Shown here: one piece after another, positions 761-5,305 of the stretch
Numbering within the stretch: the stretch's first letter is position 1
Layout: every line of letters begins with the position of its first letter
NCBI GenBank assembly: GCA_029247405.1
Contig: JAQWLH010000108.1
Span: 1-64,000, forward strand
Length of the DNA: 64,000 nucleotides
Source of the DNA: Mariniblastus sp.
Lineage (GTDB): Bacteria > Planctomycetota > Planctomycetia > Pirellulales > Pirellulaceae
Direction: 5' to 3'
The notes under the pieces: generated by a model
The model's database searches: none
The model's input: only the letters and a program-made list of their open reading frames with translations
Told to the model about the DNA's origin: nothing
Translations under genes and position numbers: made by a program

Positions 761-2068
761 CTAGTTTACAGCGGTAAAAACCCCGTTGTTTTCCTCAGCA
801 ATCGTTTTCATGGTCAGCCGCCCACTGTTTGAACCCAACAAAATGGTGTGAATGGGGATCTTTCGCATCAATCCGTCAGCACCCTTAGCCGCTTTATTCC
901 AAAATCGCAGGTTAAACATGGTGTTGTCACGAAGCTCTCCATCGGAAAGGAAGTAAATCGCGTCCGGCTTTTTCGCAAGTGCCATTCGCATGGCCTCTCC
1001 GGGCTCGGTTCCACCAAACGGCTGTGCAGCTTGAAGCCACTGGCTAATTTTCTTTTTATTTTCTTTCGTGGCTGGGATCAGTTTTTGGTCAGCCGGAGCC
1101 CCAAACATCATGTAAGCCTGGTTGTTATAAAGCAGGACAAGAAAATTTTGGTCGGACCCCAATTGATCAAGCGACGTCTTCAATTCGCGAACCGCACGGA
1201 CCCACCGGTAATAATTGATCATGCTGCTTGAGGCATCAATTACAAATACAAAATCTGATCCGTAAGACTTTGTGCCGAAAAACTCGGCCCCAGCTCCTTG
1301 TTCGGCACCCTTGCCAGCTTCCGCCTGACTCGAGGGGGTATTGGCCTCCCCGCCAGCCTTGGCAGCGGGCAAGGCAAATTCAGGTAATTCCGTCATCGCG
1401 AATGGATCCACCGAATCCGCCAAGACTTCAGGAATCGCTTCTTCGAGTTCAACATCAAAAGTCATTTGCGACTCACTGAACTCGGTAGACTCCATCTCAT
1501 CCATGTTGTCTTCGAGAGTGACATCCTCAAATTCGATTTGCATGGTCATCGAATCAAATTGGGTGTCTCCTATTTCCGCAATCTCAAGTTGAATCGAGGC
1601 GTCTTTTTGAGCCCCCCAAGTCCACAACGCCAGCATTAAGATCAAAGCTAAATGGACAGTGAAACTTACTAACCAGCTTGGCAATGCCGCTACCGCCCCA
1701 AAAGCAGAAAAGGCGAGTTGATCAACAGAAGAAGCAGGCTCGTCGGAATCGAAATTCGACGGGTCGATTTGGCTCACCCCAACCGAATGGAAAATGTCTT
1801 CCTGTTTTTCAGAGCCAGTCGATGGCACCGATTGGGATGACTGCTGTTTTTTGCCTGATTGGCAAGATTGGCGAGTTTCTGGTTCTCGCTGAGACGGGCC
1901 TGTTCCAAATGACTGGGGTGCAAATACCTCCAGTTTTGGAGTCGATCTGGAAATTGAACCGTCTCTGTCCATCTTGTCCCTTGCGTTGGTAGCCTCGCGC
2001 TCTGGGAAGTGGCGGCGAACGGGCACAAATCGACTCATCGACTGCCCAGCTGTGTTGCATTGGTCCAT
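761..2068 (-). CDS. Membrane-anchored von Willebrand factor A domain protein
   Basis: 435 residues from the ATG at 2068, which has a GGTGGAA stretch just upstream; an in-frame TTG at 2095 is a less likely start. The N-terminal ~120 residues are polar and probably disordered. One hydrophobic segment follows (about residues 125-152, LPSWLVSFTVHLALILMLAL), then an acidic linker rich in E/D/M, then a vWA domain beginning FVFVIDASSSM, with an intact DxSxS MIDAS motif and the later GGT and FLSDGE elements. The domain probably binds a metal and a protein partner outside the membrane; the target is unknown. It is divergent to the exported protein at 2488. Confidence 0.85.
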   Translation of the reverse strand: MDQCNTAGQSMSRFVPVRRHFPEREATNARDKMDRDGSISRSTPKLEVFAPQSFGTGPSQREPETRQSCQSGKKQQSSQSVPSTGSEKQEDIFHSVGVSQIDPSNFDSDEPASSVDQLAFSAFGAVAALPSWLVSFTVHLALILMLALWTWGAQKDASIQLEIAEIGDTQFDSMTMQIEFEDVTLEDNMDEMESTEFSESQMTFDVELEEAIPEVLADSVDPFAMTELPEFALPAAKAGGEANTPSSQAEAGKGAEQGAGAEFFGTKSYGSDFVFVIDASSSMINYYRWVRAVRELKTSLDQLGSDQNFLVLLYNNQAYMMFGAPADQKLIPATKENKKKISQWLQAAQPFGGTEPGEAMRMALAKKPDAIYFLSDGELRDNTMFNLRFWNKAAKGADGLMRKIPIHTILLGSNSGRLTMKTIAEENNGVFTAVN

Positions 2069-2487
2069 TATCGCGTTTCCACCCCGAACAATCAACTGAA
2101 AACATTTAGTGCCGTTTTCAAAGGGAGGGTTTTCCGGCGACTAAGAGCATTCACGCCGTTGCTTAGCTTGCCAGTTGGTTTTTCAACATGAATTTTGTGT
2201 TTGACGGGGGATTTCAAAAAGGGCTAGCGGTGATTCAAACTCACGTTTTTACGAAGGAATACGATAGCGTTTCCGGAAAGAAAAACCTTCAAATCATTAG
2301 CTGTGGTGGGCTCACTGCTAGGTCAGGAAGAACAGATTACAACCTTCCGGCATGTTGCGCGGATCATTTCATCCCCCCCAACCGAAAATTCCACGCCAAC
2401 ATCGATGTTGATTCGTCTTGCCCGCCGTTCGCCTAACTCCCTATACTCCGCACGAAATCAGGCTTAATCCAAGTCGCGGAGGTTGCG
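2069..2487. other. Divergent intergenic region
   Basis: About 420 bases between two divergently transcribed genes. It must hold promoters for both. I see no convincing small gene, RNA or strong repeat. A good ribosome-binding sequence (GCGGAGG) lies just before the ATG at 2488. Confidence 0.5.
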
Positions 2488-3822
2488 ATGCGCAAAACCG
2501 GTTTATTAATCCAAATGAAACTCATCCTATTAGTAACGCTAATTGTTGGAGTTGGATCTGTCTCTCCATCGTGGGCATTTCAAACCTCAACTGGTTCAAA
2601 CCGCCCAACGCCAACTCCATGGCGACCTACGTTTGGCCCCGTTAATCGAACCGCCATGGAATCACGAGCAACCAACGGTTCGGACCTCACCCATTCCGCT
2701 GCGAGTTCGGGACGCAACATGTCTCCGGCGGCAGAAGCCAATGGAAAGAGCAATGCGGATTTACTCCAACCAAAAAATCCAGCGGATCAGGCCTCATCGA
2801 CCGATCCGGGCGTCACCCGAGTCACCAAGTCGATGGACAAGCTTCCCAACTCAGCAGGACAAATCTGGCGAGAATACGACATTTCGCCTTACACTTCTCA
2901 AATCACCAATTCCCAGAATCCGCAAAAAGCAATTACCGAGTGGATTCTGCGCGAAACCGGAACCGAGATGTGGTTCAACGAGCCACTCGGAATTTTAAAC
3001 GCCAGTAAGAACGAACTCCTCGTCTATCACACCCCCGAAATTCACGCAGTCGTCAAACGGATCGTTGACCGTTTCGTGAGGACACGGGGGCAAGTTCAAA
3101 ACATTGATGTCAATCTCGTCACCGTTGAAAACCCGAATTGGCGCTCCCTGTCTTACACGATGCTTCAGCCGATTAACGTACGCTCAGCTGGAGTCGAGGC
3201 TTGGATGATCTCCAAGGAAAACGCGGCGATCCTCATGAGCCAACTTTCGCAGCGAGGCGACTTTAAACAGCACAGCGGCGGACGACTAACGAATCACGAT
3301 GGCCAATCATTTGTGCTTGAAAAAACCCAACCCACTCAGTTTGTGCGAAGTCTTCGCTGGGTTCCCAATCAAGTCCCTAATTATCAGCCATTAATGACCA
3401 GTCTCAACGAAGGATATCGACTTTCCATCACCTCGCTTTCGTCGATGAACGACAGTGCAATCGAAGCGGTTATAAAATGTGACGTCGATCAGATCGAGAA
3501 ACTCAATACCGTTCGAGTCAATGTGCCCGCCATTGGTGGGGGTTCGCAAACGGTTAATTTAAAGGTTCCTCAACTAGTCAGCTGGCGGCTTCACGAGCGT
3601 TTCCGCTGGCCCAACGATCAAGTCCTGCTTTTAAGCTGTGGTGTCGTCGCCTCGCCTGACCCCGATTCAGAGGGGGGATTTCGAATTCCAGGCCGATCTC
3701 CCAAATCGAAACGGGCAGATGCCTTGGTTTTCATCGAGTATCGCGGCCCTGCCTCGGGACCGACGATAGGCCAAAACCGAACCGCTCAAAACCGCTTGGC
3801 ACCGCTTGTCGATCAAAAGTGA
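2488..3822 (+). CDS. Exported protein with a secretin N-like segment
   Basis: 444 residues. The start is supported by GCGGAGG about 7 bases upstream. A signal peptide (hydrophobic residues ~10-30, ending near SWAFQ) is followed by a proline/serine-rich low-complexity stretch to about residue 110. Residues ~145-200 (ITEWILRETGTEMWFNEPLGILNASKNELL...TPEIHAVVKRIVDRF, shown here in pieces) have the pattern of the small alpha/beta secretin N domains that precede GspD/PilQ barrels. The rest is beta-rich and unknown. No secretin barrel signature is obvious, so it is best called secretin-related or hypothetical. It probably acts in the periplasm. Confidence 0.75.
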   Translation: MRKTGLLIQMKLILLVTLIVGVGSVSPSWAFQTSTGSNRPTPTPWRPTFGPVNRTAMESRATNGSDLTHSAASSGRNMSPAAEANGKSNADLLQPKNPADQASSTDPGVTRVTKSMDKLPNSAGQIWREYDISPYTSQITNSQNPQKAITEWILRETGTEMWFNEPLGILNASKNELLVYHTPEIHAVVKRIVDRFVRTRGQVQNIDVNLVTVENPNWRSLSYTMLQPINVRSAGVEAWMISKENAAILMSQLSQRGDFKQHSGGRLTNHDGQSFVLEKTQPTQFVRSLRWVPNQVPNYQPLMTSLNEGYRLSITSLSSMNDSAIEAVIKCDVDQIEKLNTVRVNVPAIGGGSQTVNLKVPQLVSWRLHERFRWPNDQVLLLSCGVVASPDPDSEGGFRIPGRSPKSKRADALVFIEYRGPASGPTIGQNRTAQNRLAPLVDQK

Positions 3823-3985: not shown

Positions 3986-5305
3986 ATGTCCAATTCAGAC
4001 CGTCGCGTTGTTATTACCGGAATGGGGTTGATCAGCCCGCTTGGCCATTCGTGTGGTGAACTTTGGAATTCACTGGACAATGGCATCAGCGGAGTAAAAC
4101 AACTATCGGCCATTCCAACCGATCACTTCCCATCTGATTTCGGTGGCGAGTGCGCTGAATTTGCAGGTGAGATTGGGAATTTTGGAACGCTCGAAAAAAA
4201 GCTTCAACGGAGTATTAAGAAGGCCTTACGGTTAATGTGCCGAGAAATTCAGCTCGGTGTAGCTGCCGCACAACTGGCGATTGCGGATGCGGGTCTTGCA
4301 ACGTGCGATATTGCTCCGGAACGCATTGGAACTTTATTCGGCAGCGATTACATCATCACGTCTCCACTCGATTTCTCTCAAAGCATCCAAAATTGCATTG
4401 AGCCCGACGGTGAATTCAACTTCGAAAGTTGGGCGGAAAACGGAATCCCCAAGGTCGAACCGCTTTGGCTGCTCAAATATCTCCCTAACATGCCCGCAAG
4501 CCATGTGGCAATTTTCAATGACCTTCGTGGTCCAAGCAATTCCCTGACCGTCCGCGAAGCTTCTGCCAATCTGTCCCTTGCCGAAGCCACCACGATCATT
4601 CAACGTGGTTCGGCTGACGTCATGGTTGCTGGTTCCACCGGCTCACGAATCCATCCACTGCGAACCGTGCACATCGCCTTACAGGAACAATTGGCAGACA
4701 AAAACACCGAGGCTGCCGGCGGCGACCCAACCCGGGCTTGTCGACCCTTTGATGCCGACCGAAGCGGCATGGTTCTTGGTGAAGGCGCTGGCGTGATGAT
4801 CCTAGAAGAACTCGCCTCTGCCGAAAAACGAGGCGCGAATATATTGGGTGAAGTCATTGGATATGGCTCGTCTTCAGTTGCCAACAAACAAGGTGTTGGC
4901 GATTATAAAAAAGCGTTCACCAACGTCATCCAAGGGGCTTTGGAAACTTCAGGGCTGCCAGTATCAGAAGTCGGACATTATCACGCCCATGGCCTGAGTT
5001 CGCCCAAAGGTGATCGTGAAGAAGCAGCTGCAATTAAGGATACCCTAGGCGAAACACCTGTCACGGCGGCCAAGAGCTATATGGGCAATCTCGGTGGAGG
5101 GAGTGGAGTCGTCGAAGCAATTTCCAGCCTCCTGGCAATGGAAAACAACTCGCTGTTTCCAATCCTGAATTGTGACAATCTGGATGATCAATGTCAGATT
5201 TCGGCAGTTCGAGAAAAGGGGACTTCTCCCGGCGACTCATTCATCAGTGCCAATATCACGCCGCAAGGCCAAGCGAGTTCGATCGCTATTCGAAAATTTA
5301 CTTAA
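3986..5305 (+). CDS. Beta-ketoacyl synthase homologue lacking the nucleophilic cysteine
   Basis: 439 residues over the full length of a FabF-type thiolase-fold enzyme: VVITGMGLISPLG at the N-terminus, and RPFDADRSGMVLGEGAG at residues 253-269. The catalytic triad of the family is Cys-His-His. Aligning the conserved GPS...GSADVMVAG block places Glu191 at the nucleophile position. The first histidine is kept (HAHG, His335). The second, normally in KSxTGH, reads KSYMGN, so Asn368 replaces it. Condensing activity is therefore unlikely. Chain-length factors of type II polyketide synthases (Gln at this site) are the closest known precedent for a non-condensing homologue, but no active partner ketosynthase is adjacent. 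It stands alone between intergenic gaps. Confidence 0.88.
   Translation: MSNSDRRVVITGMGLISPLGHSCGELWNSLDNGISGVKQLSAIPTDHFPSDFGGECAEFAGEIGNFGTLEKKLQRSIKKALRLMCREIQLGVAAAQLAIADAGLATCDIAPERIGTLFGSDYIITSPLDFSQSIQNCIEPDGEFNFESWAENGIPKVEPLWLLKYLPNMPASHVAIFNDLRGPSNSLTVREASANLSLAEATTIIQRGSADVMVAGSTGSRIHPLRTVHIALQEQLADKNTEAAGGDPTRACRPFDADRSGMVLGEGAGVMILEELASAEKRGANILGEVIGYGSSSVANKQGVGDYKKAFTNVIQGALETSGLPVSEVGHYHAHGLSSPKGDREEAAAIKDTLGETPVTAAKSYMGNLGGGSGVVEAISSLLAMENNSLFPILNCDNLDDQCQISAVREKGTSPGDSFISANITPQGQASSIAIRKFT

Follow-up and report, generated by a model that had tools for sequence, protein, structure and literature searches.

The window analysed here is a 64,000-nt stretch of DNA from Mariniblastus sp. 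(positions 1 to 64,000 of contig JAQWLH010000108.1, forward strand). An open reading frame with an ATG start that occupies exactly positions 3986–5305 of its plus strand encodes a 439-residue ketosynthase homologue, termed Glu-ketosynthase (Glu-KS). The neighbouring genes and the features within Glu-KS, the latter positioned by alignment to FabF, are as follows:

761–2095, minus strand: vWA-domain protein, a divergent neighbour common to close relatives (context only)
2488–3822, plus strand: 'F2sec', 444 aa, without a Pfam match, whose N-terminus resembles a signal peptide; the gene immediately precedes Glu-KS
3986–5305, plus strand: Glu-KS (KSa family, group G1), 439 aa, FabF fold minus the Cys nucleophile
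4460–4492, plus strand: PLWLLKYLPNM, residues 159–169, on FabF 131–141; hallmark of all KSa
4553–4558, plus strand: Arg190-Glu191 codons; Glu191 (codon 4556–4558) falls on FabF Cys163, at the nucleophile elbow
4988–4990, plus strand: His335, the first catalytic His, kept (FabF His303)
5072–5074, plus strand: Lys363, kept (FabF Lys335)
5087–5089, plus strand: Asn368, at the position of FabF His340, the second catalytic His
5255–5275, plus strand: I424-T-P-Q-G-Q-A430 where FabF has its GFGGTN gating loop
5724–7163, plus strand: WcaJ-type undecaprenyl-phosphate sugar transferase, which also lies downstream in seven related loci; context, outside the Glu-KS system

Both ketoacyl-synthase domains of Pfam (Ketoacyl-synt N and C) were found at full length in Glu-KS (E = 1.9e-33 and 1.2e-17). 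Active-site positions were assigned by alignment to E. coli FabF, which showed that, besides His335 and Lys363, the conserved Glu of FabF is also kept (Glu377). The alignment disclosed a further change, absent from the earlier note on this DNA: the Phe400 gate of FabF (GFGG) has become TPQG, with Pro426. An AlphaFold2 monomer model built from 26 orthologues (pLDDT 89.3, pTM 0.91) contained a strand at residues 184–187 followed by a helix at 190–206, with Glu191 in its N-terminal turn, that is, in the nucleophile-elbow position; the top Foldseek matches of the model were FabF structures (TM 0.85–0.86 by query length). The earlier note had read both substitutions, Cys to Glu191 and the second His to Asn368, from the sequence, and had named a cysteine at the elbow as counter-evidence. 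The alignment shows the two substitutions, and alignment and model place Glu191 there instead, so the observation stands: Glu-KS is a real FabF-like protein that lacks the reactive cysteine.

Close homologues of Glu-KS were present in 95 of 100 genomes of the same family, and in all of the good-quality ones (72/72). Among 104 distinct Pirellulales orthologues, Arg190, Glu191 and Glu377 were found in every sequence (104/104), Asn368 and Lys363 in 103/104 and His335 in 101/104; the rebuilt pocket, including the P426/Q429 loop, is strictly conserved. When Glu-KS was compared with a 70%-identical relative, the differences at codon positions 1, 2 and 3 were 0.25, 0.14 and 0.62, a pattern as under purifying selection. 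Given the fixed residues, the near-universal presence and the few changes at the first two codon positions, the Glu substitution is not a matter of chance, and loss-of-function decay was rejected. A remodelled pocket kept this strictly would suit an enzyme that acts on its own with a novel chemistry (Glu191 serving as a base for acyl transfer or for hydrolysis) or an acyl-ACP sensor. We hold this to be highly improbable: no precedent was encountered among the solved or curated families searched, and KSa-like relatives encoded next to the ketosynthase KSb, described below, can have Ala or Arg there.

Sequence comparison places Glu-KS within a phylum-wide planctomycete clade, named KSa here. In a quick tree calculated without bootstrap, Glu-KS and KSa formed a single clade (SH-aLRT 95), apart from KSb (98) and FabF; within this KSa clade the first branches were the Cys-bearing KSa of family f15 and the Asp-bearing KSa of family f44. 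The grouping of Glu-KS with planctomycete FabF was rejected by the AU test (p = 2e-5), and on this test the idea of Glu-KS as a duplicate of the neighbouring FabF was rejected too. In ten planctomycete families outside Planctomycetia, the KSa gene lies upstream of, and usually adjacent to, that of KSb, an intact Cys-His-His ketosynthase (as in families f15, f31, f44 and f71); wherever the retrieved sequence extends far enough, the genes are arranged as DH-(KR)-ACP-DH-KSa-KSb. KSa was upstream of KSb in 17 of 20 further KSb neighbourhoods, and the other three had none within the ~4 kb retrieved on each side. The catalytic residues of KSb are Cys/His/Lys/His in 68/68 sequences. The residue at the Cys site of KSa varies, as would be expected if the site no longer served catalysis: of 26 sequences, 18 have Glu, four Cys, and one each Asp, Asn, Ser and Gln. 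KSa other than those of Pirellulales have lost the His. Tree and synteny together point to KSb as the ancestral tandem partner.

Within Planctomycetia, KSb was found in 74 of 76 genomes, in a conserved DH-ACP-DH-KSb locus from which KSa is gone. Nearly every Planctomycetia genome examined has, in this locus (L008; L224, L227, L229), a second type II system. The earlier note had suggested searching the genome for a partner ketosynthase; KSb, a candidate, is present in the genome of the window, where ACP-DH-KSb is broken by a contig end (L008, contig C62:1-1653). Overlapping KSa-like/KSb pairs also occur in the class (L284, L285, L286, L291); their KSa-like members are without the His region, and the Cys site is occupied by Ala, Arg or Glu. 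In Planctomycetia, the relatives of Glu-KS form the groups G1 and G2, which bear Glu or Asp at the site. Three further observations concern the window's own genome. A second Glu-KS paralogue (contig C57:1108-2349; L002/L038) has GEVSG, NSNAS for NAHGT and GN for GH. At one end of contig C86 (1-1799; L007), a ketosynthase C-terminal fragment precedes an ACP and a phytoene-dehydrogenase-like gene. Beyond the window, its own contig (C112) carries at 80.5–90.6 kb (L041, L042) large type I PKS-like ORFs that adjoin two FAD-dependent proteins (halogenase-like by eye) and an AMP-ligase-like protein, and which probably form a natural-product cluster.

Orthologous loci of named relatives were found by an alignment query. 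The operon in these orthologues runs fabD-fabG-acpP-fabF, an unannotated protein, GluKS, nusA-infB-rbfA, an order we infer from the named relatives to be ancestral. Of the 80 named loci, 25 have the FabF gene upstream of Glu-KS in the same orientation, and their gene order is constant; in six loci of family f3 (by inference Planctomycetaceae), FabF immediately precedes Glu-KS. The description of Glu-KS as a lone gene in the earlier note holds inside the window but not for the orthologues, often located downstream of fabF; the linkage has been lost in the window's clade. No neighbour is more constant than F2sec, whose gene immediately precedes Glu-KS in the same orientation at most orthologous loci; across the 57 loci examined, most Pirellulales fab operons encode this probably secreted protein between fabF and Glu-KS. 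Several records titled Candidatus Kuenenia stuttgartiensis or Planctomicrobium (L128, L145, L149, L166, L130) contain Pirellulales-type Glu-KS and fab operons, and are probably mislabelled MAGs.

The constant gene order in the 25 loci with fabF upstream of Glu-KS, and the direct adjacency of fabF in the six Planctomycetaceae loci, would be accounted for if Glu-KS were a specific partner or regulator of the housekeeping FabF, in a heterodimer that tunes chain length in primary fatty-acid synthesis. This appears distinctly unlikely, since KSb is favoured as the ancestral tandem partner, FabF is conserved as an ordinary KAS II with no special interface motif, and the Glu-KS and FabF genes are far apart in many genomes.

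The most conserved stretch of Glu-KS is PLWLLKYLPNM (99.4% versus a mean of 64%). W161, L166, P167 and N168 were present in 164/164 KSa-type sequences, and Glu-KS shows the KSa pattern PLW-x-L-x-x-LPNM in full. All KSa share the segment, even the Cys-bearing one, and it persists where the KSa and KSb genes are separated. Its counterpart in KSb is E-x-E-Q-E-P-N-M, with E162 in 61/68, E164 in 54/68 and E/D166 in 62/68 sequences. In the monomer model of Glu-KS, residues 160–168 make up the sole segment of at least three residues with pLDDT <50, which might fit a partner-dependent segment. The corresponding region of FabF (131–141) presumably plays a cross-dimer role, with Phe133 and Thr137 lining the acyl cavity at the dimer interface. 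According to the ApeO-ApeC/ApeR structure paper, ApeR Tyr135 and FabB Met138 of the aligned region lie in the acyl cavity, and that of ApeO-ApeC is lined by both subunits (PMC8358021). Lys164 of Glu-KS is also present in planctomycete FabF (33/35), so that the charge argument alone cannot choose the partner; an exclusive Lys-Glu pairing with KSb was dropped for this reason, and charge pairing between Glu-KS and KSb is only suggestive.

The reading we favour, with a probability of about 0.58, is that Glu-KS is the non-condensing, chain-length-factor (CLF)-like half of a ketosynthase heterodimer with KSb (less likely with FabF). Glu-KS would pair, across the usual ketosynthase dimer face, with an intact Cys-His-His ketosynthase; the KSb of the DH-ACP-DH-KSb locus is the likeliest candidate, and FabF, the gene neighbour of Glu-KS in many relatives, a less likely one. 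The invariant Trp161 and Tyr165 of PLWLLKYLPNM would be placed at the acyl tunnel of the partner, setting substrate or chain length, while Glu191 would fill the active site of Glu-KS itself and prevent its acylation; Glu-KS might also supply an ACP docking face. Among the three options that the earlier note had offered (decarboxylase, structural partner or new activity), the structural partner gains comparative support because KSa of other planctomycete families is encoded next to an intact ketosynthase, like a KS/CLF pair, and the decarboxylase remains a live rival. The partner is uncertain, since the Planctomycetia genes are linked to fabF and not to KSb. A fused KSa-KSb AlphaFold model (L176, with one in-frame stop read through) did not succeed (pLDDT 44, pTM 0.38), probably because its alignment was too shallow; in an alignment of mixed single KSa and KSb rows, all rows were placed on the KSb half. 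Weighing against the CLF-like reading, the near-invariance in Pirellulales of Glu191, His335, Lys363, Asn368 and Glu377 is stricter than a purely structural subunit needs, and that of the first four keeps a decarboxylase or acyl-binding role alive.

The same four residues, and the location of the orthologues within the fabD-fabG-acpP-fabF operon, would be consistent with a KSQ-like malonyl-ACP decarboxylase that yields acetyl-ACP for priming fatty-acid synthesis. Glu191 would then mimic the acylated Cys, and the chemistry would fall to Lys363, His335 and Asn368, the last two reproducing, without its Cys, the Cys-His-Asn arrangement that FabH and chalcone synthase (CHS) have. Ketosynthases with a Cys-to-Gln mutation act as decarboxylases, and the His-Asn pairs of FabH/CHS enzymes assist decarboxylation, which also counts for this role. 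We nevertheless judge it unlikely: natural KSQ have Gln and both His, homologous KSa are without the His and differ in the residue at the Cys site, and a negative Glu would be unfavourable beside the malonyl carboxylate. In addition, FabH scored above the cut-off in 37/40 relatives; Glu-KS is therefore not generally needed to replace FabH priming, and general replacement was largely rejected. The genome of the window (84% complete) had no FabH over the curated cut-off (best KAS III match, E = 1.9e-67), and the same was seen in genomes G015 and G040.

The atypical residues have been recorded before. In a study of ladderanes, Rattray et al. 2009 (PMC2649909, Table 2) listed Rhodopirellula baltica RB4527/NP_866153 as an atypical FabF paralogue with Glu163, His298, Leu300, Asp302, Lys328, Asn333, Glu342 and Pro392, together with a second paralogue bearing Asp163; no family, operon, partner or mechanism was offered for NP_866153. 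These eight diagnostic residues are identical in Glu-KS; NP_866153 is probably its orthologue and appears to belong to the KSa clade. Since the residues were tabulated in 2009, the substitution itself is no discovery; new here are the operon context, the phylum-wide KSa clade and the KSa/KSb pairing outside Planctomycetia. Literature searches for a Glu-type CLF or a Glu-type decarboxylase found none.

Ketosynthase halves without catalytic activity have been described mostly in PKSs of secondary metabolism. A universal one, encoded in the housekeeping fatty-acid operon of a bacterial class, would imply that a heterodimer decides the chain length or the starter of the lipids in that class. The proposal also provides R. 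baltica NP_866153, unexplained since 2009, with a testable function. The KSa clade possibly offers an independent origin for studying CLF evolution, with Cys, Asp, Asn, Gln and Glu states alive together. A wider scenario, which we put forward tentatively and regard as rather doubtful, is that the KSb/KSa pair of Planctomycetota, with its acidic Cys site, arose independently of actinobacterial CLFs and became a universal part of housekeeping lipid synthesis in Planctomycetia, as a pseudo-subunit in the primary fab operon, where the Glu-His-Asn-Lys pocket would also have a conserved chemical or acyl-ACP-binding role. On the practical side, automatic 'FabF' labels in Planctomycetes include non-condensing proteins and should be treated with caution.

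Compared with known ketosynthases, Glu-KS shares with FabF (KAS II) the fold, ~32% identity to the nearest solved structures and the operon neighbourhood, but FabF has the Cys-His-His triad and the Phe gate, and Glu-KS has neither: Glu191 and Asn368 break the triad, and the score against the NCBIfam fabF equivalog (266.5 bits) falls below the cut-off of 493.75. Despite the His-Asn pair, TIGR00747 (FabH/KAS III) gave no match to Glu-KS at E 0.001. In KSQ domains, as in Glu-KS, a carboxamide or carboxylate side chain replaces the Cys and the first His is present; however, KSQ have Gln, both His and a loading-module AT-ACP, whereas Glu-KS is free-standing, with Glu191 and with Asn368 for the second His. 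ApeC, the CLF of aryl polyene clusters, is likewise a non-catalytic ketosynthase half with a ketosynthase partner in a DH/ACP-rich cluster, although it is about half-length and Glu-KS is full-length. The four Streptomyces CLFs checked (L171-L174) read Q, FADAA and GR at the Cys, first-His and second-His sites, in line with the earlier note's statement that chain-length factors have Gln. Glu-KS departs from these actinobacterial proteins, which have Gln and have lost both His, in its Glu191 and in keeping the first His (His335), the Lys and the Glu; KSa precedes KSb in gene order, whereas CLF follows KSalpha; and actinobacterial CLFs sit in a separate clade of the tree, although the AU test did not reject, and the tree did not support, a joint grouping of Glu-KS and Streptomyces CLFs (p = 0.144). 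With CLFs (KSbeta, e.g. 1tqy_B) it has in common the ketosynthase fold and the absence of a Cys nucleophile, and its KSa homologues adjoin an intact ketosynthase, near an ACP. The evidence from pairing and pocket supports the idea that Glu-KS would work like a CLF.
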